A stretch of DNA of 64,000 bases from Axinella damicornis. Taxonomy: Eukaryota; Porifera; Demospongiae; Axinellida; Axinellidae. This document shows positions 9,401 through 58,300 of the stretch, in pieces. The position numbers were made by a program, and so were the translations under genes. Position 1 is the stretch's first letter, and each line of letters starts with the position of its first letter. The notes under the pieces are model-generated. The model was given only the letters and a program-made list of their open reading frames with translations, ran no database searches and was not told the origin of the DNA. The stretch lies in contig OZ007514.1 in NCBI GenBank assembly GCA_963931865.1, positions 496,001 to 560,000 on the forward strand, read 5' to 3'.

Positions 9401-12400
9401 GTCCTCCCCTTCTGCTTGTGTCTCTCCCTCAGACCCCACCCTCACTGTGGAGAAGATGACGGAGGTGATGGGGGAGGTGGGAGACAGGGAGGGGGTGTGG
9501 GTTGGGCTAGGTGTCCCAGACTCTAAGCGAGCTGAAATCAAGCAGCAGTCATCCACTGAGGGGGAGAAGAGTCGTGCACTGTCACAGTATTGGTTCAACT
9601 GTTTCCCTGATGCCTCCTGGAAGAGACTTGCCTGGACACTTTACTATCAGGGAGAGGAGAGAGCAGCAGCGATGGCCAAACAATACTTGCCCATGAAAGG
9701 TACGTGCATTTCTTGACCACCTGAAATAGGACTTGTGTGCTGTGGTGTTTGCATTCTAATGGATGCCCACCAGTACTCACTGTCCTGCTTGTGTACTACT
9801 CCAATGTGCCTAGCGTAGGCTCACCTATTATCGCCGCTTTTGGTCCATCAGTCTCACTGTGCATCCGTAATGCTGTAAATAGTCTAAACCGCGAGCTATC
9901 ATTAGGGAAATCCCCTGCAACTGTACCACAGCGTAATCTTTAACCTAGCTCCTCCCCAGTAGGAAGTGGCAGAGCCAGATTGGGCCCCAGTAGCTATGGC
10001 GATAAAGAGGGAAATCACCGCATTATCGCCACTACTCAAAACCGCCAAAAATGTATACATAAAGTACACTGAAGCAAAACAAGGAAACTTGGCTACATGC
10101 ACTGAGAGACTGAAATGTATGCTGCATGAAGTTGCACAAGTCAGCTGAATTGGCATGCAAGAAGGAAGTTAAATACATACACATGAAAAATCACTGAGCC
10201 GATACACCTGAGATCCGAGTCCGGCAAGTACATGCATGAAAGTCACTGAGAGGCTGAAATATATGCTGCATGAAGTTCCACAAGTGGCATGCATGAACAG
10301 AAATACATACACATGAAAAATCACTGAGCCGATACACCTGAGATACATATGCAAGTGGATGGTGGGACAGTTTGGAATGAGGGTACCATATTTACACACC
10401 ATGAATGGACCATCTAATAAGGCAAGTGGGGGGAGGATAATCAACATGTCCTGCCGGCAGCAATTAGCAGGTGTGAGTAAATGGCATGAAAGTCACTGAG
10501 AGGCTGAAATATATGAAGTTCCACAAGTGGCATGCATGAAGCTAAATACGTACACATGAAAATTACTGAGCCGATACACCTGTGATCTGTGTTCGCCGAG
10601 TACATATGCATGAAAGTCACTGAGAAGCCAAACACAGATCACAGGTGTATCGGCGTGAAACACTGTTGCTTTGGAAGGCACAGTAGCTGTGCACCCATGC
10701 ACCACACATGTCGCAGTCAACCCAGAAGACAGTCTTTACGGCGCAAGCTGGCTCCCTAGCATGGCAGATAGTGCACAGCACGGCATCGTCATCATCACTT
10801 GAACTATCCGAATCATTTCGAAATCGAGCGGGCAACTGGCGTTGTCGTTTGGGACGGGAGAAACTTGGTTCACTGCTTGAGTCCTGCTCTCCAGAGGAAC
10901 GTGCAGAGTCTGAGCTCGAGTCAGTCGGGAGTTCAAGTCTTGGGCGAGCAATCGGCTTAGCTGCAGAACCTTTCTTGAGCTTCCTGGTTTTCTCTTTCTC
11001 CCTCTCCTTGCGCTTCTTGACTTCCTCTTTCTCCACTGCTTTCTTCTTCCTGGCTTCTTCCCTCTCTGCCTTCTTACGTCTATTAGCTTCCTCTTTCTCT
11101 TCCCTCTTACGCTTTCGCTCTTCCTTTTCCCTTTCTTTTTCTTCAGCCACTTCTTTCTTCTTCCTTTCCTCCTGTTTAAGCCGTGCAGTATACTCATTTG
11201 CTGTGAGTTCCCTTGCTCCAGTGATACGCTTAGTACGCTTCTTTGAAGCTGCAGCGCCTTCTGACGGAGGTGCAAGGATATCAGCAAGATTAACTGGAAC
11301 CAATCCGGCTGCAACAAGAGGATTTACAATTAGGGATGAAGACTGTGGAGGATTTACAATAAAGGATGAAGACTGTGGTGTAGAGGTGGCTGTAGGGCAC
11401 ACTTGATCAGGTGGTCCTACATGACTGTCATCTTTCTGAGACGACTGAGAACACCACGGAGAAACTGTAGGGGAGGGAGAGACAGCAGAGAAGGTACTGT
11501 CACTATCTTCAGTAGATGTATTCGAGGTATTTGAGGCACTGGACTGTGGACAAGAAGGTCCACTGGACTGAGGACTGTAGAGGGCGGAGGGCAATGTTTT
11601 GGCTACGGCAATGGCATCGGGATTAAATGGAAATATTCCAGATTTCGCAAAACCTGCCTTGACATTGGTGATTGAGAAGGCACGCTCGAATGGGCCTTTG
11701 AAAACCTTGGCAAAGTCCCGCTTCGAAACAACAAAATTTGGCTTTGAGAAAGCTAAAGCCCGCACAGACTTGCTAAAATGGTCCTTAAGGGATTTAAATA
11801 CAGCTACATCGAGAGGCTGGAGGGCATGTGTAGTATGAGGGGGCAAGCAGAATAGAATTATCTCATTCTCACGGCACAAATCAATAACATCCAACGTCAT
11901 GTGCGTCTCGTGCCCATCGATAAACAGGACCACAGGACGTTGTGCTGCAACGTGCTTCAAAAAGATCTTCTTCAGCCAGGCCATGAACAGCTCCGAATCA
12001 ATCCACCCCGATTTGCTCTTTCCATAAAGAGCATCGTCTGGGCCATCGAATCTGTATTGACCACCCGGGAAAGACTTGGGGTAGATGATGAAAGGGGGGA
12101 GTGGGAGTCCTGCAGCAGATGCAGCACAAAGGACAGTGATATGATCTGTAGTTCCGTGAGCTTGCGCATACACGTATTTCGTGTTCTTCAATGTCACAGC
12201 CTTCTCTCGTGTAAAATTGAGGGGAAGAAAGGTCTCATCACAATTATACAGCTGTCGAGGCAAATTCAGGAGGTTGTTATGTTCCAGTATCGGCTTCAAG
12301 GTTTCAAAGTACTCCTTGACTCTCTCAGGACTCAAAGCTTCTGCACGGCTACGCTCAAGCTTGTCAGTAGTTCTAAGAGTCAGCCTCCGAAAGTTCACCC

Positions 12401-15400: not shown

Positions 15401-18400
15401 AGTCGGTGACTTTGAACATTTAGTGTGTTCGTGAAGTAGATGAAATGGGAGAGAGGAACTGAGAAGAGATGAATGAGATCAGACAAACTGGGAGTAGAGG
15501 AAATGGGAAGATCACTACACAATTGCACAAGCTGGGCCTTTCCATGCTACCGTAGTCACGCGTTATTAGGCGCATGCGCCTTTAACTCCACAGGAAGGAA
15601 ATATGCGCCTAATAACGAGATGCGCTTAATATCGAATGACATTCCTTGAATGAGAAGTGCACTTCAATTTGATTATTTACAAAATGGCAGACATTTCGGA
15701 AGAAGTCTTCAGTGCTTAACAGCGAGTAGTTGGGAAAAGAGTCGAACCTGCACCTAACAGTGAATATGTGCCTATAAGTGAGCTGTGCCTAATAACGCGT
15801 GATTACGTTATTACATTTACACTAGCAGAACCTGCATCTAGCAACAGAAACATAAGCGACGTGGTCGATAAAACGGAAACTCATGTACATTGTGAGCTTG
15901 AGAGTGAAGTGGTAGTCGTATCAGCATTAAACGGCAGGTAAACGTACTAACCTTGACCAAGCTGGTATCCACAGCAGTGTCCATAGCAGTTGTGGTTATC
16001 GTAGAGGACTGGTAAGTATATAGTAAATCTCAGTACACACAGACACACAGTGCTGGGCCAATATTGGTAATGCACAAGGCAGTATCTGTGTTTGTAGGGA
16101 TAGTCACTGTAATACCCAAGTATATATCTGCTGTCCTGAGTATTGTGACTTAGCATATAGTGAATTAACTGATGGACTGGAATGACCACAACATTGTTTA
16201 TTTGCTGTTCTCCTCACTGTCCTCCCCTTCTGCTTGTGTCTCTCCCTCAGACCCCACCCTCACTGTGGAGAAGGTGACGGAGGTGATGGGGGAGGTGGGA
16301 GACAGGGAGCGGGTGTGGATTAGGCTTGGTGTCCGAAACTCCAAGCGAGCTGAAATCAAGCAGCAGTCATCCACTGAGGGGGAGAAGAGTCGTGCACTGT
16401 CACAGTATTGGGTCAACTGTCACCCTAATGCCTCCTGGCAGGGACTTGCCGATGCACTTTACTATTGGGGAGAGGAGAGAGCGGTAGCGATGGCCAAACA
16501 ATACTTGCCCATGAAAGGTACGTGCATTTCTTGACCACCTGAAATAGGACTTGTGTGCTGTGGTGTTTGCATTCTAATGGATGCCCACCAGTACTCACTG
16601 TCCTGCTTGTGTAGCCTCATTCCCAGGCCTTCTCACCCAGCGATTGTCGCTTTAGTACTGTAAGCGACAAACGCTGGAGTGAGAAGGCCTGAGAACGAGG
16701 CTACGCTTGTCTACTCCAATGTGCCTAGTGTACATCGTGTGATAGTTGTTTACCAGTGTTGTGCATTACTGGGTTTTAGTGCACTGAGGGCAATGTAGTA
16801 ACGGTTTAGGGTGGGATAATGCATGAGCCGATCAGTACATATACACATTATCCGCCTGAGACCGTTAATGCATTGCCCGAGGTCCAATAATGCCCAAAAA
16901 CTGGTAAATAGCTATTACACGATGTACACTTACAGTAATACACAAGCAGGACAGTGCACAAAAACTGGTAATTACTCACCCAAAACAGTCGTTGGTCATT
17001 ATCTGGATAGGTGTGCATTATCTAGATAATTCTGATTCATTGAGGGTCACATGAGTAACTCTAAAATCAGTGATTCAGGATTTACCGTCACACTTCCTGC
17101 ATGTACATATGTTACACATGATCACAATGACATCATTATGATGTCATGCATGATGCATAGTTGACAACCACATGGTTGTGATCCTGACCATCAGATGTCA
17201 CTGAACGTTGTACACAGACCATATATGGTACGTTTCATGCCCAAAGGCAATACTGTAGGTGTACTCCTCCTAATACAGGATTGTCTTCCGTTACCAGCCC
17301 TTTTGCTTTCCCAGTGTGTGGATCCATCATCATAGTCTAGACTCTGGATACTTGGTCAGACTGTCACCAGTAGAGTTGTACATTACTGCTTGGAGAAGAC
17401 TAGCAAAGTGTGGTTGAAACATTGTAATTTCAGATTTGAAATTCTCTACTGGTGATAGTCCGACCAAAGAATGGATTATAGCATACTGGTACCACATGAC
17501 TCTCTCCATGCACTGCACTAATACAAGGGACATGCCCAATGCAACTATTCAGAGTGCTATCCTTGACAGGTAATATTCCAGCCACCAGTTTAGTTTGTTG
17601 TGCCATCCTTTCACACGGTTGTGTGGGTGGGTGCCCTCAACTTTGTGGCAGTTCTGAATGTTGAATGGATATCACCAGTTGAGTCAGGTGACTTTGAACA
17701 TTTAGTGTGTTCGTGAATTCGAAGTAGATGAAATGGGAGAGAGGAACTGAGAAGAGATGAATGAGATCAGACAAATTGGGAGTAGAGGAAATGGGAAGAT
17801 CACTACACAATTGCACAAGCTGGGCCTTTCCATGCTACTGTAATATTCCGCTCGGCTACTGCGCAGCTCAGGACAATTAAGTGACTCAATGGCGGATGGC
17901 AGAATAAGTGACTGACCATCTTGTGTACAAAGATCAAGCCTTATATAGCTGAGTATATAGAATCAGGGCACCAGATAAAGATAACTCAGGTGCATGTTAC
18001 AAGACAATAGCTATAAATTATCATTGTCCAGTTTGCACAATGTCATGTTCAGCGTCAGGTCGCTACATCACTCCCTTCATTAGAGAAGTGTGTCCTCACA
18101 CTTAAATCTGAAACTCGGAATCAGAGTCTCGGAAGCTAACAACTGTACCATATCGATCTGGAGGCCTCCTTGATCGTGTGGACCGCCTTAGGGCAGGTTG
18201 ATTGGGACTTGGTTGGGGAGGAGCGGATGAATGTGTCGGTTGTGATTCCACTTCATGTTCCGATGATATTTCCTCCCGAGCAGTTCGTAATGGAGAAACC
18301 GTTTCTTGTGGCCTTGTTTCCTCCTGGCTGGGTAGGATGACCCAATTCTCCTCTTGAACACTCTCATCCTCTCTCTGAGGACGGTATCTCTTGAGTCTGT

Positions 18401-21400: not shown

Positions 21401-24400
21401 TTTTCCATGGAGCAGACAGATCGGGCAATGAGGAGACCTTGTTGCTCCATGATGCTGACCACAGGTTCTAGAACACCTGAACCCCTCATCTGCTTAGAGT
21501 GTGAAACTGGAACATGCATCTGGCAGTGGCCTGGGATTACAACATCTGCAGAAAAAGAACATGGCACACCGACATAATTTCAGGGCTCTCTTGGGATTGA
21601 CACACCACCTGTTTTCCTCCAGCTACCAAGGTTCTTTCTCTCATGTTAATCACACAGTCGTGTTGCTTGAGAAAGTCTGCACCTAGGAGGCATTCTTGGG
21701 TCAATTCTCTGGCAATGAAGACCGGGAACTGAACGTGTATATCTCCCACTTGTAGCTGGAGTTCGCCCTGTCCCAGGAGGTCCAGCTCTCCACCATTGGC
21801 AGCTACAATTGACCGCGTTGGTCGCGTCAGATGTTCCATGGGAAGGTCTGCAGCCTCTCTCCAGACATCCTCTCGAACTAAGGAGACTGCTGAACCAGTA
21901 TCGATGAGCATCCGTGTATAGCGGTCCCCCAGTTTCCCTACCACCACCAGAGCAGCTGCAGAATTTGTAACAATATTAGACAAAGAAGCTTGGGTCTTAA
22001 AAGTTCCAGCCGGCGGTTGACCCGCGCCACCGGCTGAGCCTAGTTTAAAGGCTGATTACGGCCCTGTTGCCTCCGCTGCTTCGGGCAATTTCGTCTGAGG
22101 TGGCCACGTTCCCTGCACCCCCAACAAACTGGTCCACGTTGCCCCCCAGCTTGGTCCCCACGGAGTCGAGCTACCTCTTGCGTGAGGTACCTCACTTGAG
22201 TCGTTAGTTCTGCAATCTCGGAGGGTCCGCTAGGTCGGGTGGCGTTCGTGGATGTCTGAGCGGCAACTGCTGTTTGAAGGTTTTCCGCACTGTCAGTCTC
22301 CAGGGCTAGGGTCTCTGAGGGCAGCTGCTTCTCTTTGTGGAGCCGCTTTTGAGCTCTCTCCACCGTCTCTTGTTGATTTGCAATGCGCAGGGCTGCGTCC
22401 ATGGTTCCAGGCATTTCTCGCATCAACCAAAGCTGAACGGACGAGGAACGAATCCCTTGGACAAAATGACCTCTTAGAATTTCTTGTCGCTGTTCAACTG
22501 ACCACGTAGGATAGGCCTTGTCAGCAAGCACACGCAGGGCTCCAGCAAAGTCAGCCAACTGTTCTCCTGGCTTCTGAACTCTGGTCTGTAACTTGTACTG
22601 CCATTCCAGTTCGTTTCCGTCTGGTGCGTAGTATTGCCGCAGGCAGTCCGCCACTGTACGATATTCAACTGTCTCCAGTAGCCCACGTTGTGAAACAACT
22701 CGGAAAGGCTCGTCCTCGAGGAGGGAAAGAAGTTCTTTCACCCGCTGGTTTTCAGCAATGTCCGCCTGCCGTATGTACATCTCAAATCTTGTCAGCCACA
22801 ATGTAAAATCAGCACCCGCCGCAAATCTTGCCGGTGGACGCAAACTCATCCTGACAAACCGAGTCATGTCTGGACGCTCAGGGCGGGCTGGTGTATCTTC
22901 GTCGGCCATAATCCCACTTCTGACACCAATGTAATATTCCACTCGGCTACTGCGCAGCTCAGGACAAGTGACTCAATGGCGGATGGCAGAATAAGTGACT
23001 GACAGTCTTGTGTACAAAGATCAAGCCTTATATAGCTGAGTATATAGAATCAGGGCACCAGATAAAGATAACTCAGGTGCATGTTACAAGACAATAGCTA
23101 TAAATTATCATTGTCCAGTTTGCACAATGTCATGTTCAGCGTCAGGTCGCTACACTACCATAGTCCGCGTTATTAGGCGCATGCGCCTATAACTCCACAG
23201 GAAGGAAATATGCGCCTAATAACGAGATGCGCTTAATATCGAATGACATTCCTTGAATAGGAAGTGCACTTCAATTTGATTATTTACAAAATGGCAGACA
23301 TTTCGGAAGAAGACTTCAGTGCTTAACAGCGAGTAGCTGGGACAAGAGTCGAACGTGCTCCTAACAGCAAATATGTGCCTATAAGTGAGCTGTGCCTAAT
23401 AACGAGTGATTACGTTATTACATTTGCACTAGCAGAACTTGCATCTAGCAACAGAAACAAACGACGTGGTCGATGAAATATGGCTGCTAATGTATGCTTA
23501 CGGAAACTCGTGTATTACAGCAGTGGCAACATTGTGAGCTTGAGAGTGAAGTGGTAGCCGTATCAGCATTTACGTAACTGCAGGGAACGTACTAACCTTG
23601 ACCAAGCTGGTATCCACAGCAGTGTCCATAGCAGTTGTGGTTATCGTAGAGGACTGGTAAGTATAGTAAATCTCAGTACACACAGACACACAGTGCTGGG
23701 CCAATATTGGTAATGCGCAAGGCAATATCTGTGTTTGTAGGGATAGTCACTGTAAGACTCAAGTATATATCTACTGTACTGACTATTGTGACTTAGCATG
23801 GAGTGGATTAACTGATGGACTGGAATGACCACAACATTGTTTATTTGCTGTTCTCCTCATTGTCCTCCCCTTCTGCTTGTGTCTCTCCCTCAGACCCCAC
23901 CCTCACTGTGGAAAAGGTGACGGAGGTCATGGGGGAGGTGAGAGACGGGGAGTGGGTGTGGGATAGGCTTCATGTCCCAGCCTCCAAGCAAGCTGAAATC
24001 AAGCAGCAGTCATCCACTGAGGGGGAGAAGAGTCGTGCACTGTCACAGTATTGGATCAACTGTGCCCCTCATGCCTCCTGGAGGGGACTTGCCAGGACAC
24101 TTTACCTGAGAGGAGAGGAGAGAGCAACAGCGATGGCCAAACAATACTTGCCCAAAGGTACGTGCATTTCTTGACCACCTGAAATAGGACTTTGTGTGCT
24201 GTGGTGTTTGCATTCTAATGGATGCCCACCAGTACTCACTGTCCTGCTTGTGTAGCCTCATTCCCAAGCCTTCTCACCCATGCAGCGATTGTCGCTTTAG
24301 TACTGTAAGCGACAAACGCTGGAGTGAGAAGGCCTGAGAACGAGGCTACGCTTGTCTACTCCAATGTGCCTAGTGTACATCGTGTAATAGTTGTTTACCA

Positions 24401-27400
24401 GTGTTGTGCATTACTGGGTTATAGTGCACTGAGGGCAATGTAGTAACGGTTTAGGGTGGGATAATGCATGAGCCGATCAGTACGTATACACATTATCCGC
24501 CTGAGACCGTTAATGCATTGCCCGAGGTCCAATAATGCCCAAAAACTGGTAAATAGCTATTACACGATGTACACTTACAGTAATACACAAGCAGGACAGT
24601 GCACAAAAACTGGTAATTACTCACCCAAAACAGTCGTTGGTCATTATCTGGATAGGTGTGCATTATCTAGATAATTCTGATTCATTGAGGGTCACATGAG
24701 TAACTCTAAAATCAGTGATTCAGGATTTACCGTCACACTTCCTGCATGTACATATTGTTACACATGATCACAATGACATCATTATGATGTCATGCATGAT
24801 GCATGGTTGACAACCACATGGTCGTGATCCTGACCATCAGATGTCACTGAACATTGTACACAGACCATATATGGTACGTTTCATGCCCAAAGGCAATACT
24901 GTCAGTGTACTCCTAATACAGGATTGCCTTCCGTTACCAGCCCTTTTGTTTTCCCAGTGTGTGGATCCATCATTATAGTCTAGACTCTGGATACTTGGTC
25001 AGACTGTCACCAGTAGAGTTGTACATTACTGCTTGAAGAAGACTAGCAAAGTGTGGTTGAAACATTGCAATTTCAGATTTGAAATTCTCTACTGGTGATA
25101 GTCCGACCAAAGAATGGATTATAGCGCATAATACAACAATTCAGTGCTATCCTTGACAGGTAATATTCCAGCCACCAGTTTAGTTTGTTGTGCCATCCTT
25201 TCACACGGTTGTGTGGGTGGGTACCCTCAACTTTGTGGTAGTTCTGAATGTTGAATGGATGTCACCAGTTGAGTCAGGTGACTTTGAACATTTAGTGTGG
25301 TCGTGAAGTAGATGAAATGGGAGAGAGGAACTGAGAAGAGATGAATGAGATCAGACAAACTGGGAGTAGAGGAAATGGGAAGATCACTACACAATTGCAC
25401 AAGCTTGGCCTTTCCATGCTACCGTAGTCACGCGTTATTAGGCGCATGCACCTATAACTCCACAGGAAGGAAATATGCGCCTAATAACGAGATGCGCTTA
25501 ATATCGAATGACATTCCTTGAATAGGAAGTGCACTTCAATTTGATTAATTACAAAATGGCAGACATTTCGGAAGAAGACCTCAGTGCTTAACAGCGAGTA
25601 GCTGGGACAAGAGTCGAACGTGCTCCTAACAGCAAATATGTGCCTATAAGTGAGCTATGCCTAATAACGAGTGATTACGTTATTACATTTGCACTAGCAG
25701 AACCTGCATCTAGCAACAGAAACAAATGACATGGTCGATGAAATATGGCTGCTAATGTATGCTTACGGAGACTCGTGTATCACAGCAGTGGCAACATTGT
25801 GAGCTTGAGGGTGTAGTGGTAGCCGTATCAGCATTAAACTGCAGGGAACGTACTAACCTTGACCAAGCTGGTATCCACAGCAGTGTCCATAGCAGTTGTG
25901 GTTATCGTAGAGGACTGGTAAGTATAGTAAATCTCAGTACACACAGACACACAGTGCTGGGCCAATATTGGTAATGCACAAGGCAGTATCTGTGTTTGTA
26001 GGGATAGTCACTGTAATACCCAAGTATATATCTACTGTGCTTGAGTATTGTGACTTAGCATATAGTGGATTAACTGATGGACTGGAATGACCACAACATT
26101 GTTTATTTGCTGTTCTCCTCACTGTCCTCCCCTTCTGCTTGTGTCTCTCCCTCAGACCCCACCCTCACTGTGGAGAAGGTGACGGAGGTGATGGGGGAGG
26201 TGGGAGACAGGGAGGGGGTGAGGAGTTGGCTTGGTGTCCCAAGGTCCAATCAAGCTGAAATCAAGCAGCAGTCATCCACTGAGTGGGAGAAGAGTCGTGC
26301 ACTGTCACAGTATTGGGTCAACTGTTCCCCTGATGCCTCGTGGGAGAAACTTGCCATTGCACTTTACAATAGTGGAGAGGAGAGAGCAGCAGTGATGGCC
26401 AAACAATACTTGCCCAAAGGTACGTGCATTTCTTGACCACCTGAAATCGGACTGGTGTTCTATGGTGTTTGCATTCTAATGGATGCCCACCAGTACTCAC
26501 TGTCCTGCTTGTGTAGCCTCATTCCCAGGCCTTCTCACCCCAGCGATTATCGCTTTAGTACTGTAAGCGACAAACGCTGGAGTGAGAAGGCCTGAGAACG
26601 AGGCTACTGCTTGTCTACTGCTCCAATTTGCCTAGTGTACATCATGTAATAGTTGTTTACCAGTTTTTCAGATTTTATTGCACCGAGGGCAGTGTTGTAA
26701 CGGTTGAGGGTGGGATAATGCACGAGCTGAGGGTGTGTACATTATCCGCTTGAGACCATGTATATTGCCCAAGTGCACTAATATAACCCAGTAACACCCA
26801 AAAACTGGTAAATAACTATTACACGATGTACACTTACAGTAATACACAAGCAGGACAGGACTCAAAAACTCACCCAAAACAGCCGTTGGTCATTATAGCT
26901 AGATATGGTGTACATTATGTATCTAGATAGTTTTCCCAGTGTGTGGATCCATCATTATAATCTAGACTGTGTATACTTGGTCAGACTGTCACCAGTAGAG
27001 TTGTACAGCACTGCTTGAAGAAGACTATAGCAAAGAGTGGTTCAAAACATTGCAATTTCAGACTTGAAATTCTCTACTGGTGATACTCCGACCAAAGAAT
27101 CGATTATAGCAGACTGGTACCATATGACTCTCTCCATGCACTGCACTAATACAAGGGGCATACTCAATGCAACAATTCAGAGTGCTATCCTTGACAGGTA
27201 ATATTCCAACCACCAGTTTAGTTTGTTGTGCCATCCTTTCACACGGTTGTGTGGGTGGGTACCCTCAACTTTGAGGTAGTTCTGAATGTTGAATGGATAT
27301 CACCAGTTGAGTCAGGTGACTTTGAACATTTAGTGTGTTCTTGAAGTAGATGAAATGGGAGAGAGGAACTGAGAAGAGATGAATGAGATCAGACAAACTG

Positions 27401-36943: not shown

Positions 36944-36944
<1 letters not shown>

Positions 36945-36945
<1 letters not shown>

Positions 36946-37117: not shown

Positions 37118-37216
37118 AGTACTAGCAACATGGAAGAGTGTGTGCTGTGTATGTATTTGTGTGTGTTGAGTGTATAATTATAGACATACTACTACATTAG
37201 TAAATTTGTGTGAGCA

Positions 37217-37974: not shown

Positions 37975-38084
37975 TACACACCTGTGCATTCCCAGCAGCT
38001 ACTAGAATGGCATCTCCAGTGGTGCTGTACCGAAGAGCGCAGATCTGGTCGCTGCAGAGAGAATACACTCGGCACACACACTCA

Positions 38085-38250
38085 TGATTACTGGAGATTT
38101 CTAGAGTTTACTGGAGTTACTATAGTTTACTAGAGATTACTAGAGATTACTAGAGTTTACTAGAGATTACTAGAGTTTACTAGAGATTACTAGAGTTTAC
38201 TAGAGATTACTTTACTAGAGATTGCTAGAGTTTACTAGAGATTACTGTAG
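38085..38250. repeat. 10-bp tandem repeat (TTACTAGAGA type), copy 2
   Basis: About 16 unit copies in the WDR70 intron, longer than the array at 1,341-1,421. Confidence 0.85.
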
Positions 38251-39439: not shown

Positions 39440-39810
39440 AGTCTCGCATGCCAGACATTCGCGGCACGCGCAGAGAGGGAAAAAGAACGTCTGGTCATTT
39501 AGACAGGTTTCCGTAGACGTCATCGGAATGTTGGTGGCACCAATCAGATTGGAGAGCGTTCACCTTCTGTATTGGTCACATGATCCGTACAGATTCAAAC
39601 GAGAGCAAGAACAGATTTGCGAGTTAGATGTCCTTTACAGTTGCAAGTGAACGGCACGAATACCACACCCATTTATCGCTGATCACCGACATCGCAGAAC
39701 AGCGGTGCAGACACTACCTTCCTGTGACATTAATTTTGATATGATGTCACATTTTTTAATTCCTCCGTGCCACGGAAACCTGTCTATAGTGACCAGACGG
39801 GATCCAGCTG
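39440..39810. mobile_element. Inverted-repeat insertion specific to locus copy 2
   Basis: Starts near a TAGTCTCGC motif. Arms about 39,486-39,516 (CGTCTGGTCATTTAGACAGG) and 39,766-39,803 are inverse of each other. No counterpart in copy 1. Exact ends not fixed. Confidence 0.5.
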
Positions 39811-39914
39811 CTGATCCTGATCGTGATGATAGTTGTTACTCTACATGCGGTCATAACTGATGCTTAGAATCTAACCAGATAGTCTCACGGTTGCGTGGCC
39901 AGACCACCTGGAAG

Positions 39915-39960
39915 TAGTCTCGCGGGCCAGACTGTGGCGAGAGGCTGGCCCGCGAGACTA
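39915..39960. mobile_element. 46-bp foldback with perfect 9-bp target duplication
   Basis: TAGTCTCGCGGGCCAGAC ... and the matching inverse ending CGCGAGACTA, flanked on both sides by ACCTGGAAG (39,906-39,914 and 39,961-39,969). It is itself nested in a larger foldback (about 39,881-39,993) with the same TAGTCTC/GAGACTA termini. Confidence 0.88.
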
Positions 39961-40105
39961 ACCTGGAAGTACTAGGTCTAGCCACGCGAGACTAGTCATG
40001 ACTCTAAAGCCACCTCAAGATGACATGCAGTTCAGATCTATCCTTGCAGGTCTTACCAAAGCCAGAGAACCCCATGACAGCTGCAATATCCTCCTCTTCA
40101 CTCAT

Positions 40106-40312
40106 CTCAGACTTACAGAGGACAACCTCCACTCCCGTTCCCGTTCTCCGGATCCAGGGTGAGCTCACAGCATGCAGGGCGAGGCTGCAAAGTTGTGAGT
40201 AGACCCCTGCTCGTTAAGTGACACGCCCCCATCTTTGAAAAACAGCGTGATGACTTGATGAAGCGAAGAGCGAGTGAGACTACCTGCTTCTCCGTGACCC
40301 CAAACGAGTGAA
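40106..40312. promoter_or_regulatory. Putative bidirectional promoter, locus copy 2
   Basis: Equivalent of 3,234-3,448, between WDR70 exon 1 (-) and gene 2 exon 1 (+). Conservation between copies supports function or recency. Confidence 0.5.
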
Positions 40313-40334
40313 ATGGCTGAGAAGACGAGCACAG
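40313..40334 (+). CDS. Gene 2 exon 1 (start codon, MAEKTST)
   Basis: 22 nt, donor ACAG|GTGAGT, phase 1; conserved with 3,449-3,470 apart from one substitution changing Pro to Thr. Confidence 0.6.
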
Positions 40335-43300
40335 GTGAGTAGGAGACTTGTCTCTTTATCCATGAAGTTTAAATCAGCCTGTCATGCAGCAGTCCCGCCC
40401 AAAGAGGTCCTGAGGGCTAGTCTCGTTCCCAAACAATATTTCGCCTTTCATGCCCATTTTTTGAGCCCCCGCGAGTATGTTCATGACAGAACTTTCAACT
40501 AGTACCTGTGGTGCAGCAACTGTGGAGCCTCTGCCTGGATCGCTAGCAAGTGTGCACCCAGCCGCTGAACAGTCTTGTGACCAGTAGCTCTGGGCACGAG
40601 GCAGCTGTGAAAATGCTAGTATTGTGTGGCAAGATCCTGAGGGAAAGGGTCTGCAACATGGCCGTAGAGCAGTTTGTTGTTAATTTGCACCGTGGAGTGC
40701 ATGCTGATCACAGCGCACCTGCTACCTGAATAATTTATGTGATTAACGGGAACATTCATATTTTGAGAGTGAGTGGAGAGTAGATGTGAAGCATGTGAGC
40801 GTGAAGTGTCTTGACTCGACCTCAACACAGTAGAAAGTGAAACTACGAGTGCAGCAAGGTTGCAGGTCTTACTTTGGTGATCGCTTTGCTGACACGGCTG
40901 GATTACATAGCTAATTAAATTCCTGAGCAACAAGCCTCTCTATGGCCGTGTCCCAGACCCTTTCCCTCGGTATGGAACAGGGTCGGCTACGCGAGACTAC
41001 GAAATGCATGCGAACTTCACATTATCAAAGGAGGTTGGACACATTTTTCTGTGCACGTGACTGCACTGCTCTCGAGCAGAAATAATTTACATTCCTAACC
41101 CTAACCTCAACAACCTCACCTCGTTCCCACATCAACATGGCCTGGGACCGGAAGTGGAGTTTGAAATTCAAGGTAGGAGTGCCTTGAAGACGCTTCAGGT
41201 TGGACCGGCTTCCAGTTGGAGTATCTGCTATAGCTAGAGGCCCAAATGTCTAAGTGACCCAGGGATGATGGCACATATTGGAATCTACTCCACTAGAGCT
41301 TTCGAATGATATCGACTTGTTTGTAAAGACTACCTGAGCACTTCAGTACAGAACCCCCCGTATAAAGTCGCCCACACACAGATGCCACATGACCGTGTCC
41401 CAACCTCCAGTGGTGAGTTACCTGGAGCTCTAGCTCTGTCACACCACTAAAATATCCAGGTGAAGGTGGTCTCAAACGACGGCAGGTTGGAAACTAGGTG
41501 CACACAAGGTATATAGAAGTTTGTACTACCTGATAACAAGACTGCCATAGTGGCCCATAGTGAAAGTGAAATTGATTTACCAAAGCAGCCCTCATTTCTG
41601 TGGAACAAACATCACTCTTAGGCTACGGCTATTTTCAATGTGCTGAATTTTTTACCGGGATTCTCAATGATCCGCTCAAATCCTTTGCAAATAAAGAAGA
41701 CCTATTCCATCTCAAACTCACCTGACAGTATCCGCTAAGCTAATTTTTTTCAAAACACAGCTGAGACTGTTTTTGCAGAACGATTTCACCTGTCGTTATG
41801 GGCTATGTGGATGATAATCATATATTGACTACCTTGTGCATACCACTAATTACTAGCTTCCAACCTCCTCTGATGTCACACTAGTGCAGTTGACTGCCAT
41901 GTTTCCAGTCACCCTGTGAGTTACAGACTCTCCCACCACCTCCGACAGCTCAATATGCCCTTGACACCACTTGATTATGGTTTACTGATAACAGCCCTTA
42001 CAGGTACATCTTGTATTAGCTAGTGATCATCTGTTGAGGTGTGTTCCCCCTCCCTCTCCACTTCAGCTCCACCCCTCACAGTGGACACCGTCCTGACTGC
42101 TGTGCAGGGAGTGAACTGGAGGACACTTGGGAAGAAGCTTCTGTTCAACGTTGATGTGGATAAGATAGAAAAACTACACCAATCTGACGATGGTCGTCTT
42201 CGTGATGTACTAGAGCACTGGATGCAGGATGGTGGGAGGCATAAGGAACCATCTTGGAGGAGTATCATTTGGGGATTGGATGGAGCTAATGAGACGAGAA
42301 TGGCTGACAACTTCCGAAACTTTGCCGAACCTGTCCAAGGTAAGTCATATCACTCTATAAGTGTATCCAAATTCTTGTACAGTGTGTGAGTCCTGCCTGA
42401 CATTAGGGAGTGTGAAACACTGGACCAAGGGACACTCCGCCACTGGCAGCTGCACTAGATGGCAATCGCACAAACATGGCCCATATCAACACGTACATGA
42501 CCACACATCATAAGATCTATTTCATCTACTCCCACTTTGTCTACTACTAGTTTATTGACCTGAGCTGCAGTTCTGACAGAATGAAAAGCACTAAAGTGCA
42601 AACCCTCGGCGTTTGGTAGCTTTCTTAGGCTCGCAATCATCACTGCAACGTGCCCTCCTTTTACACGCAAAGGCATGGCCACAATCACAAACCGCCCTCT
42701 TCGCATGCACTGTACTACTGCACCACACTTTGGACATGTCTTTCTCAGACGCATAGACCATACAGACTCCATTGTCAGTCACCAGTGGCCAACCAACAGG
42801 GTTCTCGCCAGAAATCTACATCCAAATGGTGCATGATGTAATCATTATGAACTACATGTAGTGCATACGTGAATACACGCAGAAGAGCCTCACGCGAAGC
42901 GAGTGGGCATTGTCGTATTCACAGCCTGGTAAAGATATTCATGTAGCTCACTCTGACTAGTAAGTATATTCATGAAGCAACCAGGAAACCCATAATCATT
43001 TGCAAGTACGCCTGGAAAATTGCATGTTGGACAAAATGGCGGACATTATCGCGGTAAGCAAGAAGCGCTCTAGCTTCCTAACTAAGTATTTTTAGGAAAA
43101 ACGCCAGTTTAAAATCCATGTATGTATCCCGCTTGTACCGCTAGTGCCTTTAGTTCTACGTTTACTAGCACCAGTTGGCAGATAAGTTTCTTGGACAAAC
43201 AGACAGACACACAAAACGACTACAGTAACCCTGTGCGCATGCGCGCCGAGGGTTAAATATCTTACCACTTTAGTATCAGTGAAGTACTGTCAGTGTACAA

Positions 43301-46300
43301 TATACACTGGCTGATGTTGATATGCTCATCCAGGCAATAGTCTGCACAAACGTCTCTACTGTCCTTGACAGGTAATATTCCAGCCACCAGTTTAGTTTGT
43401 TGTGCCATCCTTTCACACGGTTGTGTGGGAGGGTACCCTCAACTTTGTGGTAGTTCTGAATGTTGAATGGATATCACCAGTTGAGTCAGGTGACTTTGAA
43501 CATTTAGTGTGTTCAGACATGTCCGTAGTTTGGTGTGAATGAATAGAGTAGGAAATGAGCGTATCATATTTCAACGAGGGAGTAGATGAAGTGGAAGTAG
43601 ATGAAATGGGAGAGAGGAACTGAGAAGGGATGAATGAGATCAGACAAACTGGGAGTAGAGGAAATGGGAAGATCACTACACAATTGCACACCCACAAGTA
43701 GCCTCGTTCCCAGGCTGTGTGGGAGGAGAGAAAGCACGCAGCCTGGGAATGAGGCTAACCCACAAGCTGCAAATCTTGGACCTCTCTGTACTATCATGGC
43801 AGCCAACATTATATTTACTCTAGCAGGACCCGCCCTATGGCAGCATCTGGTTTGTGCAGAAACAGGAACGTAAACGACGTGGTGAATAAAATATAACTGT
43901 TCATGTGCATTTACGTTCATGTGTTAGTATGTGAAGGGCATGATCAGTAGAAGGTTCCTGCACATTGTGAGCTTGAGGCTGAAGTGGTAGCCGTATCAAC
44001 ATTAAACGGCAGGGAACGTACTAACCTTGACCAAGCTGGTATCCACAGCAGTGTCCATAGCAGTTGTGGTTATCGTAGAGGATTGGTAAGTATAGTAAAT
44101 CTCAGTACACACAGACACACAGTGCTGGGCCAATATTGGTAATGCACAAGGCAGTATCTGTGTTTGTAGGGATAGTCACTGTAATACCCAAGTATATATC
44201 TGAGTATTGTGACTTAGCATGGAGTGGATTAACTGATGGACTGGAATGACCACAACATTGTTTATTTGCTGTTCTCCTCACTGTCCTCCCCTTCTGCTTG
44301 TGTCTCTCCCTCAGACCCTACCCTCACTGTGGAGAAGGTGATGGAGGTGATGGGGGAGGTGGCAGACTGGGAGACGGTGTGGAGATCTATGTTGCTTGGT
44401 GTCCCAGACTGTAAGCTAGCTGAAATCAAGCAGCAGTCATCCACTGAGGGGGAGAAGAGTCGTGCACTGTCACAGTATTGGGTCAACTGTGCCCCTGATG
44501 CCTCCTGGGAGGGACTTGCCGGTGCACTTTACTTAGTGGGAGAGGAGAGAGCAGCAGCGATGGCCAAACATTACTTGCCCATGAAAGGTACGTGCATTTC
44601 TTGACCACCTGAAATAGGACTTGTGTGCTATGGTGTTTGCATTCTAATGGATGCCCACCAGTACTCACTGTCCTGCTTGTGTAGCCTCATTCCCAGGCCT
44701 TCTCACCCAGCGACTGTCTCTTTAGTACTGTAAGCGACAAACACTGGAGTGAGAAGGCCTGAGAATGAGGCTACTGCTTGTCTGCTACTCCAATGTGCCT
44801 GGTGTACATCGTGTAATAGTTGTTTACCAGTTTTCAGGTTTTAGTGCACTGAGGGCAATGTTGTAAGGTTGAGGGCAGGATAATGCACGAGCCGAAAGTG
44901 AGTACATTATCCGCCCGAGACCGTTGCTACATGTATATTGCCCGAGTGCACTAACCCAGTAATGCCCAAAAACTGGTAAATAGCTATTACACAATGTACA
45001 CTTACAGTAATACACAAGCAGGACAGTGCACAAAAATTCACCCAAAACAGCCGTTGGTTATTTTCTAGACAGTTATCTAGATAGTTTTCCCAGTGTGTGG
45101 ATCCATCATCATAGTCTTGACTGTGGATACTTGGTCAGACTGTCACCAGTAGAGTTGTACATTACTGCTTGAAGAAGACTATAGCAAAGAGTGGTTGCAA
45201 CGTTGCAATTTCAGATTTGAAATTCTCTACTGGTGATAGTCCGACCAAGAATTGATAGTATGGTTATAGCACACTGGTACCATATGACTCTCTCCATGCA
45301 CTGCACTAATACAAGGGACATACTCAATGCAACAATTCAGAGTGCTATCCTTGACAGGTAATATTCCAGCCACCAGTTTAGTTTGTTGTGCCATCCTTTC
45401 ACACGGTTGTGTGGGTGGGTCCCCTCAACTTTGTGGTAGTTCTGAATGTTGAGTCAGGTGACTTTGAACATTTAGTGTGTTCGGACATGTCTGTAGTTTG
45501 GTGTGAATGTTACCATGAATAGAGTAGGAAATGAGCGTCTCATGTTTCAACGAGGGAGTAGATGAAGTGGAAGTAGATGAAATGGGAGAGAGGAACTGAG
45601 AAGAGATGAATGCCAATGGGATCAGATAACTGGGAGTAGAGGAAATGGGAAGAGCACTACACAATTGCACACTAACTAGTAGCCTCGTTCCCAGGCCGCG
45701 TGGGAGGAGAGAAAGCATGCGGCCTGGGAACGAGGCTAACCCACAAGCTGCAAATCTTGGACCTTTCTGTACCAGCCAACGTTATCTTTACTCCAGCTGC
45801 ACTATGGGCAGCATTTGGTTTGTGCAGAAACGGGAATGTAAACGACATGGTCAATAAAATATAACAGTTCATATTTATGGAAATTCTGTATTAGTGATGT
45901 GAAGGGCATGATCAGTAGAAGGTTCCTGCACATTGTGAGCTTGAGAGTGAAGTGGTAGCCGTATCAGCATTAAACGGCAGGGAACGTACTAACCTTGACC
46001 AAGCTGGTATCCACAGCAGTGTCCATAGCAGTTGTGGTTATCGTAGAGGACTGGTTAGTATAGTAAATCTCAGTACACACAGACACACAGTGCTGGGCCA
46101 ATATTGGTAATGCACAAGGCAGTATCTGTGTTTGTAGGGATAGTCACTGTAATACCCAAGTATATATCTACTGTGCTGAGTATTGTGACTTAGCATGGAG
46201 TGGATTAACTGATGGACTGGAATGACCACAACATTGTTTATTTGCTGTTCTCCTCACTGTCCTCCCCTTCTGCTTGTGTCTCTCCCTCAGACCCTACCCT

Positions 46301-49300
46301 CACTGTGGAGAAGGTGATGGAGGTGATGGGGGAGGTGGCAGACTGGGAGACGGTGTGGAGATCTATGTTGCTTGGTGTCCCAGACTGTAAGCTAGCTGAA
46401 ATCAAGCAGCAGTCATCCACTGAGGGGGAGAAGAGTCGTGCACTGTCACAGTATTGGGTCAACTGTGCCCCTGATGCCTCCTGGGACTCGGGACTTGCCG
46501 GTGCACTTTACTGGAGTGGAGAGGAGAGAGCAGCAGCGATGGCCAGACAATACTTGCCCATGAAAGGTACGTGCATTTCTTGACCACTTGAAATAGGACT
46601 TGTGCGCTATGGTGTTTGCATTCTAATGGATGCCCACCAGTACTCACTGTCCTGCTTGTGTATGCCTTATTCCCAGGCCTTCTCACCCAGCGATTGTCAC
46701 TTTAGTTATGTAAGCGACAAACGCTGGAGTGAGAAGGCCGGCTACTGCTTGTCTGCTACTCCATTGTGCCTAGTGTACATCGTGTAATAGTTTTTTACCA
46801 GTTTTTCAGGTTTTAGTGCACTGAGGGCAGTGTAGTAAGGTTGAGGGTGGGATAATGCACGAGCCGAAGGTGAGTACATTATCCGCCCGAGACCTTTGCT
46901 ACATATATATTGCCCGAGTGCACTAACCCAGTAATGCCCAATTACGGTAAATAACTAGTACACTTACAGTACACAAGCAGGACAGCACACAAAATCTAGT
47001 ATGTTACACTCCTGGTATGGGAAAAATTGTACCGCGTAATGTAACTAATCTAAATAATTAATTAAATAATCAAACCTCACAGCTCGCAGGAAAGGTCTAC
47101 AGAGATTCTGACTACACCATCGTGATCGCTATCATGCAGTGACACTACCACACAATAATTGTGGCGAAACTCACCTTGGTGATGGAGATACAAGCGCTTT
47201 TGTCGTGCCGTCGGCCGCTATTGCTCGATCGCTCTCTTCGACGTTGGTTGCCAGTACAGTCATACGAAGGGCCCACAAAGATTCTGACCACACAGCCATA
47301 ATCGCTGTTGTTCACTGACGGTTACATACCGAAACTCACCGTGCTGGCAAGGTTGTACATTGTAAGTGCTGTTATAATTTCGTGTCTTCCTTTTGGTCGC
47401 CATTGCTTGCTTTCGACTGAGCGTGGTTGCCACGTGGCATGTGCGTTAATTGGGAATAACTGCGATACTTAGCTTTCGCTACGGCGAGTCGCAGCCGGCG
47501 TTGCAACGGCTACCAGGAGTGCGGTTGCCCCTCGTAAAGTATTTAGTGTTAATTACTACAGTCGTTGGTCATTATCTAGATACACACTGCACTATACGTG
47601 TGCATTTAGGTAAAGGTTCAGGAACACTGTTCCTGCTGACTCAGCATGGAGTGGATGAACTGATGGACTGGAATGACCATTCTAATGAATGCTCACCAGT
47701 ATTACTAGTTACCCCGTGCACACATTCACAGCAAGGGGTATAGAGTGAGTGCTCTGTCTGTCAGTGTGTGTGTGTGTGGACACAAAATAAGCAGTTTGAG
47801 CAAATGGTTGCAGCCTTTCTTGCAACACATCAGATGCAAATGCATAAATAGTAACGTATATATGCACCTCACAAACAACGGTCATAGAAGGCCTGGGCTG
47901 TCACTCTCCAAATATTGAGCAAAATCACACAGTTTACGGTAGGCAGAATGATGTCACACGTTTAGAGCGCAGTGTACATTCGGCATAAGGTGGGGTATTG
48001 GGGCATGAGACTAGAACATCGCACGGGGTGAGTGCTCTACAGGGCACTTCTTGTTTCACTGAGTATCTTACACTTTGTGCTGTTACATTCTAATAGCTGC
48101 CCACCAGCCATACTCGTATAGTAGTTGCACACTCATGTATGGCTGCTGTACCACAGTGTGTATGTACATATTGTTACACATGACCACAATGACATCATTA
48201 TGATGTCATGCATGATGCATGGTTGACAACCACATGGTTGTGATCCTGACCATCAGATGTCACTGAACGTTGTACACAGACCAAATTTGGCATCCCTAAT
48301 TATTCGGCATCCCTTCACGCAAATGGGAAAAATTGTCTCTAATTTCGGCAAGGGAATTCCCAAATATTTCCGAATTTAATCTCTAATTGTAGTACGTTTT
48401 CGGCAACTTGCCGTCCTGTCCGAGAGGCTTATACAAGGGAGAGATCGGTGAGTTCGGTGCTGTTTAAAGCCCCAAGTGATGAAAGCTCCAAGCTGTCGCC
48501 AATGCACACGGGCCCCTGGAAGTTAACTGATTGCTTCGACATATTCTCGTTCCCAGACCCCAACCCGCGAGAAAAGGGATCTGGGGACAATGCTACAGTC
48601 AGCTCGACCCTATGACGTTGATTTCTGGAATGTGGGATGGCCAATCCGCGTTAAGCTAGAGCAATAATTACCTCGTAGTTGTATCGGTGAAGTAGGTGCG
48701 AACGTATTATGGCCGCTAGTGCGTTGTTTGTTCCAAGACTGAACGAGATGTTCCTAAAAGCGACCGTTGACAGAGCAATCACCAAAGCCGTTGGAACACT
48801 TGGCTATAGTAGGGCGACAGATGATCAAGCAAATGCCATCCGAGAGTTTGTGACTGGGAGAGACGTGTTTGTAACATTACCCACAGGCAGTGGCAAATCG
48901 TTGTGCTATGCTGCACTGCCCTTGGTATTCGACTTCTTGAGAGCACCGGCAGAGTCTCCCTCGATCGTTGTAGTAGTTTGCCCTCTGCAGTCCATAATGG
49001 AAGACCAAGTAAGCAAATACAAGGCAAGGGGACTGGAGGCGGCTTTAATTGGGAAAGCCCAGAAGGACGAAGCTGTGAGGGAAGCAGTAGCTCACGGCAA
49101 GTGTCAACTAGTATACATGAGTCCTGAAGCAATGCTACTGAATTTGAGATGGCGAGAGATGTTTCGGTCTGATGTCTACCAAAACAACCTTGTGTGCCTT
49201 GCTGTCGACGAAGCCCACTGTGTGGAGAAGTGGTTAAGTTCCACATTGTAAGCTAGGTTTGCATTAGCGAGTATAAAATGTAGTGATATGTTCAGATTTA

Positions 49301-55300: not shown

Positions 55301-58300
55301 GCCATGCCTGGAAGTACATGATTAGTACTTAATCACATGTATTCTCGTGCCATTTGGGAATAATTGCACTCACAACAGTCATAAATTGCACTCGCTATCG
55401 CTCGTGCAATTACTTTGCCTGTTGCTCGTGCAATTATTTCCCAAATTGCACTCGAAACCCATGTGATTACCTATACAAATTTAGCGATTTTTCTTCTAAT
55501 TCTTTCGGCAAAACGTATGAATAATTAATAAAAACCTGCCGAATTTTTAGAAGATATACGGTATGGTACGTTTCATGGCCAATGGCAATACTGTCAGTGT
55601 ACTCCTAATGCAGGATTGTCTTCCGTTACCAGCCCTTTTGTTTTCCGTGTGTGGATCCATCATCATAGTCGACTGTGGATACTTGGTCAGACTGTCACCA
55701 GTAGAGTTGTCCATTACTGCTTGAAGAAGACTAGCAAAGAGTGGTTGAAGCATTACGATTTCAGATTTGAAATTCTCTACTGGTGATAGTCCGACCAAAG
55801 AAAGGATTATAGCACACTGGTACCATATGACTCTCTCCATGCACTGCACTAATACAAGGGACGTACTCATTGCAACAATTCAGAGTGCTATCCTTGACAG
55901 GTAATATTCCAGCCACCAGTTTAGTTTGTTGTGCCATCCTTTCACACGGTTGTGTGGGTGGGTCCCCTCAACTTTGTGGTAGTTCTGAATGTTGAATGGA
56001 TATCACCAGTTGAGTCAGGTGACTTTGAACATTTAGTGTGTTCCTGAAGTAGATGAAATGGGAGAGAGGAACTGAGAAGAGATGAATGAGATCAGACAAA
56101 CTGGGAGTAGAGGAAATGGGAAGATCACTACACAATTGCACAAGCTGGACCTTTCCATGCTACCGTAGTCTCCACAGGAAGGAAATATGCGCCTAATAAC
56201 GAGATGCGCTTAATATCGAATGACATTTCTCAAATAGGAAGTGCACTTCAATTTGATAAAAATGACAGATTTCGGAAGACGACTACAGCGCTTAACAGAA
56301 CAAGAGTCGAACCTGCACCTAACAGTGAATACGTGCCTATAAGTGAGCTGCGCCTGATAATGTGCGATTACGTTATTACATTTGCACTAGCAGAACCTGC
56401 ATGTTGGAACAGAAACATAAGCGACGTGGTCGATAAAACGGAAACTCATGTACATTGTGAGCTTGAGAGTGAAGTGGTAGTCGTATCAGCATTAAACGGC
56501 AGGGAATTAACGTACTAACCTTGACCAAGCTGGTATCCACAGCAGTGTCCATAGCAGTTGTGGTTATCGTAGAGGACTGGTAAGTATAGTATATCTCTGT
56601 ACACACAGACACACAGTGCTGGGCCAATATTGGTAATGCACAAGGCAGTATCTGTGTTTGTAGGGATAGTCACTGTAATATCTACTGTGCTGAGTATTGT
56701 CACTTAGCATGGAGTGCATTAACTGATGGTCTGGAATGACCACAACATATTGTTTATTTGCTGTTCTCCTCACTGTCCTCCCCTTCTGCTTGTGTCTCTC
56801 CCTCAGACCCCACCTTCACTGTGGAGAAGGTGATGGAGGTGATGGGGGTGGTGGGAGACAGGGAGGAGGTGTGGGGTGTTTTTGGGCTTGATGTCCCAGA
56901 GTCCAAGCGAGCTGAAATCAAGCAGCAGTCATCCACTGAGGGGGAGAAGAGTCGTGCACTGTCACAGTATTGGGTCAACTGTGCCCCTGATGCCTCCTGG
57001 AAGGGACTTGCCTGGAGACTTTACAGGATTGGAGAGGAGAAAGCAGCAGCGATGGCCAGACAATACTTGCCCAAAGGTACGTGCATTTCTTGACCACCTG
57101 AAATAGGACTTGTGTGCTGTGGTGTTTGCATTCTAATGGATGCCCACCAGTACTCACTGTCCTGCTTGTGTACTACTCCAATGTGCCTAGTGTACATCGT
57201 GTAATAGTGGCATTATGGGGTTTAGTGCTCCGAGGGTGATGTAGTGAGGTTGTGGGCAGGATAATCCACCCGAGACTAGCTATACACTGCCCCAGTGTAC
57301 TAAGTTAGCCCCGTAATGCACAAAAATAAGTATTGATATATAGTGTTACCCGGTACTCACCCAAAACAGCCATTGGTCATTATCTAGATAATTAATGCGC
57401 ACTAAAATGTGCATTATCTAGTTAATTCTGTTTGTTGAGGGCCACGCGAGTAACTAAAATCAGTTATGATTGTGATTCAAGAATTACCGCCACACTTCCT
57501 TGCCTTCTACTGTTTAGCTACCTGATGTCAATCACTGGACCATCACGAGTGCATGATGACATCATTGTCGTTGCCGCTGAAATGACAATGATGTCAAATT
57601 CTCTACTGGTGGTAGTCCGACCAAGAATTGATAGTATGGTTATAGCACACTGGTGCCATACGACTCTCTTCATGCATATCACTATAGTGCACTGCACTAA
57701 TACAAGGGACTTACTCAATGCAAGTCACCAGTAATAATTGCTGTGCCCCCTCAAACCACCTGCCCCCCTTAGTCACTGTATAGGTACCCATGCATTGTGT
57801 TGCTTGTACTGGTATTGTGGACGTGAACATGACACTTCCTGAACTGACTTTGTTTATGGAACAGGAGAGCCATAGCAGGGCTTTGTTGAGTAGCTAGGAC
57901 ACGTACATTATATCTTCCCCATGTTGTCTCCCCACCCAGCAGACCCCACCCTTACCACTGACAACCTCATGGAGGTGGTGAAGGAGGTAGAGCACCGCTG
58001 GGAGGAGTTAGGTGGCAAGCTTTATATGCAACGCTCTAAGCTGGAGAATATCAAAGGTCTCTACCAGACTGATCATCTGCAGATGGAGGCTATGGTGGAC
58101 TACTACGTGAAATGCCACCCTTTATCCTCTTGGAAGCACTTTGGTACAGCACTACAGGAGATGGAGCTACACCAGCTGGCGAACAACGTTACTACAAGCT
58201 ATGTCAGAGGTATGGGATGTTAATTGTGTAGCAAGTACGTACCTAGTTGATGGTCAACCGCCGAACTTTTTTAATCGGGTCCAATTTCATCAAGTCCCAG

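Follow-up and report, generated by a model that had tools for sequence, protein, structure and literature searches.

Results

Eight copies of one Death-domain exon

The window analysed here is a stretch of 64,000 nucleotides from the sponge Axinella damicornis (C10:496001-560000, C10 being contig OZ007514.1 in an assembly of 120 contigs and 226 Mb), and it carries eight near-identical exons for a Death-like domain, here called type A, which are arranged in two putative genes of a longer tandem array. All eight exons that a sequence-only reading had placed in this stretch were found where it had put them, and the core that it described as unchanged but for one exception (AEIKQQSSTEGEKSRALSQY) is exact in seven of the eight, the fourth exon carrying a single G to W replacement. 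The exons measure 264–276 bp and all eight have AG before, GT after, phase 1 at both ends and an open frame, so that copies can be added or skipped without a break in the frame. Their differences lie mainly in two patches, defined as aligned codons 17–36 (patch 1) and 61–78 (patch 2):

9433..9699, + strand: type-A Death exon 1 (gene 8 of the array, phase 1-1, AG/GT ends, open frame); patch 1 at 9480..9530 (+), patch 2 at 9603..9653 (+)
16251..16517, + strand: type-A Death exon 2 (gene 8; the row used for the AlphaFold2 fold); patch 1 at 16298..16348 (+), patch 2 at 16421..16471 (+)
23894..24157, + strand: type-A Death exon 3 (gene 8); patch 1 at 23941..23991 (+), patch 2 at 24064..24114 (+)
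26156..26419, + strand: type-A Death exon 4 (gene 8; core with STEWEKS); patch 1 at 26203..26253 (+), patch 2 at 26326..26376 (+)
28180..28446, + strand: type-A Death exon 5 (gene 8; patch 1 as in exon 2, patch 2 different); patch 1 at 28227..28277 (+), patch 2 at 28350..28400 (+)
44315..44587, + strand: type-A Death exon 6 (gene 9; patch 1 with a two-residue insertion); patch 1 at 44362..44418 (+), patch 2 at 44491..44541 (+)
46291..46566, + strand: type-A Death exon 7 (gene 9; patch 1 as in exon 6, patch 2 longer by one codon); patch 1 at 46338..46394 (+), patch 2 at 46467..46520 (+)
56807..57076, + strand: type-A Death exon 8 (gene 9); patch 1 at 56854..56910 (+), patch 2 at 56983..57033 (+)

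The eight exons are part of a larger family, a point on which the sequence-only reading needs correction, since the genome holds at least 36 close copies, of which these are 8. A genome search with exon 2, in which 150 of 331 candidates were scored, listed 147 matches among those, the first 36 of which by score constitute the close type-A family. Thirty-five of these form a 420 kb array on the plus strand of C10 (297.8 to 717.8 kb), and the remaining copy is on the minus strand of C10 at 1.194 Mb; this last copy was left out of the analyses of nucleotide diversity (π) at replacement (πN) and silent (πS) sites, of intron π, of four-fold sites and of patch linkage, which use the 35 array copies throughout. 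An open frame with AG and GT ends was found in 36 of 36 copies, ruling out a pseudogene reading. Within the array there are also 15 exons of a related type B, preceded in order by 1, 3, 4, 2, 2, 1, 1, 5, 3, 1, 4, 1, 3, 3 and 1 type-A exons, and because each type-B exon closes a run of one to five type-A exons, we infer that the array comprises 15 genes.

The two patches are as sharply variable as first described, although they are not solid blocks: single variable codons are interleaved with fixed or nearly fixed ones. Among the 36 type-A copies, patch 1 retains V22 (36/36), W23 (34/36), L29 (35/36) and V31 (34/36), whilst P62, W66, L70, L74 and Y75 of patch 2 are each present in 36/36.

Replacement change exceeds intron and silent change

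When the window exons are compared pairwise (28 pairs), flanking intron sequence (250 bp upstream plus 80 bp downstream) differs by 0.9–7.3% and the exon outside the patches by 1.3–5.9%, compared with 0–28% in patch 1 and 4–33% in patch 2. The sharpest contrast is between exons 5 and 6, which are separated by 3 differences in 321 bp of intron and by 24 in 111 bp of patch (Fisher p = 1.3e-12). Over the array copies, πN reaches 0.215 in patch 1 (πS 0.067) and 0.243 in patch 2 (πS 0.114), against 0.027 outside the patches (πS 0.037), and the nearest introns show a π of 0.035 (100 columns upstream) and 0.036 (80 columns downstream). The excess resides in 15 hypervariable codons (πN 0.451, πS 0.154), since the other patch codons have a πN of 0.047 and a πS of 0.048. 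At the variable codons πN is thus ~12 times intron π and ~12 times πS outside the patches; equally dense intron and silent differences, which the sequence-only reading had named as the outcome that would speak against it, were not found.

Diversity at codon positions 1, 2 and 3 is 0.45, 0.44 and 0.22 at 16 variable codons and 0.016, 0.034 and 0.027 outside the patches, and many variable positions show all four bases. If a mutator worked across the entire stretch, or if balancing selection had kept old haplotypes, diversity should be raised at the four-fold sites of conserved codons that lie within the patches; ten such sites inside the patches have a value of 0.041 against 0.034 for 21 outside (Mann–Whitney p = 0.74), so neither is seen. 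Taken together, high πN, low intron π and outside-patch πS, and unraised four-fold sites within the patches favour selection at particular codons rather than a mutator of the region.

Site-wise tests by fixed effects likelihood (FEL; one exon tree, 35 distinct rows of the 36, 62 codons tested, p uncorrected) gave β > α at p < 0.05 for 12 codons (21, 24, 25, 28, 30, 33, 36, 61, 69, 73, 83 and 87) and β < α for codons 2 and 46. When half-exon trees were used, codon 25 moved to p = 0.06 and the other eleven remained below 0.05. Codons 19, 63, 67, 72, 76 and 77 were non-significant (p 0.07, 0.06, 0.30, 0.42, 0.95 and 0.91, respectively). Because recombination would break the assumption of one tree and the 5′ fit hardly moved from its starting point, the four-fold and intron comparison carries the case, with FEL as support only. 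The diversifying selection proposed from the letters alone is supported by both the divergence contrast and the 12 of 62 sites with β > α.

Patches are apparently shuffled between copies

Distances between copies in patch 1 are uncorrelated with those in patch 2 (Mantel r = −0.06, p = 0.74), and only 4 of 21 pairs of exon segments are correlated at p < 0.05, with r between 0.20 and 0.29. Counting distinct types over the 35 copies gives 31 for patch 1, 34 for patch 2 and 34 for the combination of variable residues. Exons 2 and 5 have a common patch 1 and different patches 2, and the same is true of exons 6 and 7 together with one copy from gene 3. That the patches are unlinked within 270 bp suggests frequent short-tract exchange among type-A exons, a process read here from sequence comparison, and the two window genes share long stretches at 84–98% identity.

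Several observations concern copying on a larger scale. Genes 4 and 13 (C10:416592 and C10:658477, ~242 kb apart) have one type-A protein and one type-B protein that are identical, and the type-A exons directly upstream of the identical pair differ; the identity is likely that of a recent segmental copy. About 85 bp downstream of the type-A exons, mean intron π over the 35 copies climbs from 0.05 to >0.4 within ~40 bp, a steep loss of identity that reads as if it were the edge of a copied cassette, and in window exons 2–7 the downstream likeness extends further than this average. Between the C10 array and a related cluster on C8, the 95 bp upstream of the exon are 5% different and the exon four-fold sites 30%, and the reverse was observed against the far cluster of C10 (17% upstream, 7% four-fold). 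The upstream likeness of C8 and C10 could come from either interchromosomal exchange or a constrained intron element.

A predicted Death fold with a likely variable face

The AlphaFold2 prediction for exon 2 is a six-helix Death fold, as is characteristic of the Death superfamily. Patch 1 falls on helix 2, the helix 2–3 loop and the start of helix 3, and patch 2 on the helix 4–5 loop, helix 5 and the helix 5–6 loop, so that variability on the predicted model concentrates at helices 2, 3 and 5 and their adjoining loops, with helices 1 and 4 conserved. The sequence-only reading had set exposure of the patches against burial in the core; mapping on the predicted fold gives no indication of burial, while a helical-wheel analysis makes the outward facing of the variable residues statistically clear for helix 5 only. 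With the Pfam Death profile, 45 of the 75 members of the type-A alignment match at E ≤ 0.1 (best 1.4e-6), and a window type-A row scores 18.8 bits against a cut-off of 22.6. A sequence search of the PDB with the type-A profile found no significant match (best E 0.12; FADD E 0.78), and identity to the Death domains of FADD, RAIDD, TNFR1 and RIPK1 among the PDB matches is 13–21%.

The pattern recurs in other clusters and in type B

The next 40 of the remaining 111 genome matches are distributed over C8 (23), C10 past 5 Mb (15) and C12 (2). Of the 23 type-B exons on C8, 21 are accompanied by one or two type-A exons at a distance of up to 20 kb and 2 by none. The resulting 76 exon rows (36 from the close type-A family, two further clusters of 12 and 21, and 7 ungrouped) allowed the site pattern to be compared: per-site entropy in the other two clusters correlates with that of the array (Spearman 0.44 and 0.57, 87 columns). 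Patch 1 varies in length in the C8 cluster too, with up to 7 inserted residues. The type-B domain is 28% identical to type A, and its 15 copies have 12 sites of at least 1.2 bits, 9 of which coincide with one of the 17 variable residues of type A, where 2.3 would be expected (P = 7e-6, both variability thresholds having been set after inspection of the data). Its variable codons have a πN of 0.42 and a πS of 0.17.

A profile search of public assemblies found 780 related proteins, with 120 among the matches listed. Forty-eight of those public proteins were compared, of which 40 match one of the 76 exons and 8 do not; six of the eight are from contigs of 117,701 and 18,597 bases and have 77–83% identity to exon 2. 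The patch combinations of P0005, P0016, P0025, P0026, P0048 and P0070 are absent among the 36 type-A copies, and since these six public frames carry new combinations, the type-A repertoire may be larger than this assembly shows. The two contigs possibly represent the other haplotype or another individual.

Gene models and the GTPase exon

The type-A exons of genes 8 and 9 are accompanied by the following exons:

6737..7015, + strand: type-C Death-like exon of gene 8, upstream (phase 1-1, AG/GT ends, open; Pfam Death 16.6 bits, below 22.6)
29992..30261, + strand: type-B Death-like exon of gene 8 (phase 1-1; variable sites match type A; no Pfam match of its own)
32404..34335, + strand: ROCO-like GTPase exon of gene 8 (phase 1-1, AG/GT ends; P-loop GAAGTGKS, DTGGQ, THxD)
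35137..35444, + strand: C-terminal Death exon of gene 8 (acceptor AG, stop; Pfam Death 32.9 bits, above 22.6)
42067..42339, + strand: type-C Death exon of gene 9, upstream (phase 1-1, AG/GT ends, open; Pfam Death 23.2 bits, above 22.6)
57940..58209, + strand: type-B Death-like exon of gene 9 (phase 1-1)
60819..62759, + strand: ROCO-like GTPase exon of gene 9 (phase 1-1, AG/GT ends, no stop)
63644..63927, + strand: probable C-terminal exon of gene 9 (acceptor AG, stop; no Pfam match)

The exon ends are consistent with a gene order of type C, a variable number of type-A exons, type B, GTPase and C-terminal exon, with putative phase 1 joins throughout. In the public matches, no spliced protein joining A and B was found among 120 of 412 matches. 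Three candidates for multi-domain proteins (P0171, P0193 and P0194) were rejected, as they are single-domain frames running past the exon. Neither NACHT nor LRR was detected by Pfam in the nine segments scanned, which cover part of the exons.

In 43 rows of the GTPase exon, DTGGQ and T-H-x-D are invariant and GAAGTGKS is mostly invariant or nearly so. The gene 8 exon scored 19.1 bits with Pfam Roc (cut-off 27) and 20.1 bits with COR-A (cut-off 35.3), both below threshold; no PDB sequence match was found below E 0.08, and no informative NCBIfam match. The structure model had a low mean confidence (predicted local distance difference test 53.5), with low values at the Roc part, and a Foldseek search with this low-confidence model placed only Roco or LRRK2 structures among the first ten matches, at a template modelling (TM) score of about 0.2; the best four were Roco COR or RocCOR (E 2e-8 to 7e-8), followed by LRRK2, the first seven spanning E 2e-8 to 5e-4. 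We describe the exon as ROCO-like, as distinct from a proven ROCO GTPase. As a control for the patches, the GTPase exons of genes 8 and 9 gave a ratio of replacement to silent differences (pN/pS) of 0.28 in this one pair, indicating purifying selection.

Discussion

A candidate recognition module and its rivals

The reading that we favour, with a probability of roughly two in three, is that near-identical tandem Death domains in likely ROCO-like genes have some 16 codons diversified by selection and reshuffled between copies, and that these codons give each copy its own partner specificity. The type-A Death domain would then be a recognition module, for which both foreign targets and paralogue-specific homotypic partners would fit. 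Mechanistically, helices 1 and 4 would keep a common contact, for instance for oligomerisation, and the face made by helices 2, 3 and 5 would contact partners, foreign proteins among them, that change fast or are specific to one copy. New combinations of patches would arise by short-tract gene conversion or unequal crossing-over, selection would retain the useful ones, and the GTPase would relay the signal. A more far-reaching version, which we advance tentatively and consider doubtful as a whole, is an intracellular, antibody-like sponge repertoire in which shuffled Death cassettes on ROCO GTPase receptors are chosen by splicing and yield combinatorial specificities for microbes or non-self cells.

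Among the rivals, it is possible, if rather unlikely, that the variable face binds Death domains within its own protein or a sister protein, with selection preventing cross-talk between paralogues and no foreign ligand involved. Many paralogues lie within one array, type A and type B share their variable sites, and Death domains usually bind one another, as the available portion of one account has it (PMC4739766). Such insulation would require the conserved helices 1 and 4 to lie outside the contact that sets specificity, yet helix 4 of RAIDD belongs to the type I contact, according to the part of the source at hand (PMC6169973).

We regard as improbable a history in which patch alleles are old and have been kept while gene conversion homogenised the rest, the patches being ancient and not fast-changing. 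The unlinked histories of segments within one exon, the long shared stretches of the window genes and the raised silent change at variable codons all agree with it. On such a history, however, age should also show at the silent sites of the conserved codons interspersed among variable ones, and these sites are as young as the introns.

Directed variation, which the sequence-only reading had offered beside diversifying selection, fares worse, and we think it quite improbable that targeted mutation (by diversity-generating retroelements or deaminases) or one-step codon replacement made the changes, with selection mainly purging broken folds. Changes are tightly clustered in two short stretches, as it would have them, and two results weigh against selection as the full account: silent change is itself raised at the variable codons (the πS of 0.154 given above), and at codons 76 and 77 the silent rate fitted by FEL equals the replacement rate. 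The first of these keeps replacement of single whole codons possible, and the second may stem from saturation, multi-base changes or targeted change. Raised mutation across the target stretch, the hallmark of hypermutation, was not observed, as the silent rise is confined to the variable codons themselves and the in-patch four-fold sites of conserved codons are not raised; at the variable codons, moreover, diversity at position 3 is below that at positions 1 and 2, and all four bases occur at many variable positions. A separate observation is that codons 72, 76 and 77 have very high third-position diversity and fitted silent rates, unlike the conserved codons 74 and 75 between them, which may reflect whole-codon replacement or saturation.

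Relaxed constraint, by which the patches would be surface or loop segments in neutral drift around a held core, suits the predicted model, in which most variable residues sit in loops or on the outer side of helix 5, but drift should not exceed intron divergence, and with πN ~12 times that divergence and 2.9 times πS at the same codons we rejected it as very unlikely.

Relation to known systems

Selection-diversified and reshuffled Death domains, as favoured here, would have counterparts outside animals. In the HNWD genes (het-d/het-e) of the fungus Podospora anserina, the sections of the study available to us describe near-identical WD-repeat units that are exchanged within and between genes, the rest being homogenised, and four contact-surface codons under positive selection by FEL, in pairs flanking a codon under purifying selection (PMC1805685). 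The type-A exons resemble them in that positive selection acts on few codons of near-identical units, the surface position being predicted in our case. The HNWD units, as described there, are fungal WD repeats with an established role in allorecognition, whereas ours are sponge Death domains combined with a ROCO-like GTPase, for which recognition is inferred. Brown-algal LRR-ROCO genes, in the accessible part of their description, have tandem in-phase exons, each encoding one recognition unit and joined to a ROC-COR GTPase; the positively selected residues lie on the presumed ligand face, and the proteins are proposed immune receptors (PMC11378527). Those exons, on the same partial account, are 72 bp long and in phase 2, with alternative splicing backed by transcripts, in contrast to the 264–276 bp, phase 1 type-A exons, in which a Death domain varies and which we know from genomic sequence only. 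A fixed scaffold, hypervariable codons, unlinked patches, tandem in-phase copies and a conserved signalling exon would in large part parallel both systems; the type-A system belongs to neither, because its variable unit is a Death domain.

Two animal systems also invite comparison. For the tandem exons of arthropod Dscam, the portion of the study available reports no evidence of positive selection, at low power, nor any trace of gene conversion between paralogous exons (PMC3236188), unlike the type-A exons, where signals of both selection and a conversion-type process appear. Mutually exclusive splicing is established for Dscam, and the phase 1-1 ends of type-A exons allow single, multiple or no inclusion. 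Sponge NLR genes, for example of Dysidea avara, are expanded families with N-terminal Death domains and a NACHT plus LRR architecture in the sections available (PMC12909245); they are like the type-A genes in the expansion and the Death domains and, on that partial account, unlike them in NACHT and LRR. The terms positive selection, hypervariable, tandem and ROCO are absent from the main text of that paper. No array of hypervariable Death-domain exons or paralogues was described in the literature searched, a search by title and abstract opening whose coverage excluded most subscription journals and all of bioRxiv.

The usual view casts Death domains as conserved signal-relaying adaptors, not as readers of variable targets. 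If the favoured reading is true, an animal Death domain is itself patterned like an antigen-binding site, in a tandem-exon cassette joined to a ROCO-like GTPase, and the strategy of fungal WD repeats and brown-algal LRR exons extends to sponges. The ~16 residues make up a list directly testable by binding and swap work, and the system would be a candidate route to a large, renewable recognition repertoire in animals without adaptive immunity.

Other features of the window and genome

The long introns of both genes contain open frames. Between type-A exons 1 and 2 there is a 733-residue frame (10617-12818, − strand) which by eye we take to be a pogo/Tigger-type DDE transposase-like sequence, and between exons 2 and 3 are adjoining frames (18102-22972, − strand) that, again by eye, resemble the gag, protease, reverse transcriptase and integrase of a gypsy-type retroelement. 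Inside gene 9, frames lie on opposite strands (48691-50507, + strand, and 50590-54203, − strand); the former look RecQ helicase-like, and the two sets together we assume by their look to be another mobile element. Elsewhere in the genome, an exon at C2:12.077 Mb (L111) points to a demosponge as the likely source: it reads GQCGASYAFSAMGALEG, with serine at the position of the catalytic cysteine of cysteine proteases, a motif that we presume to be the silicatein signature of siliceous demosponges.

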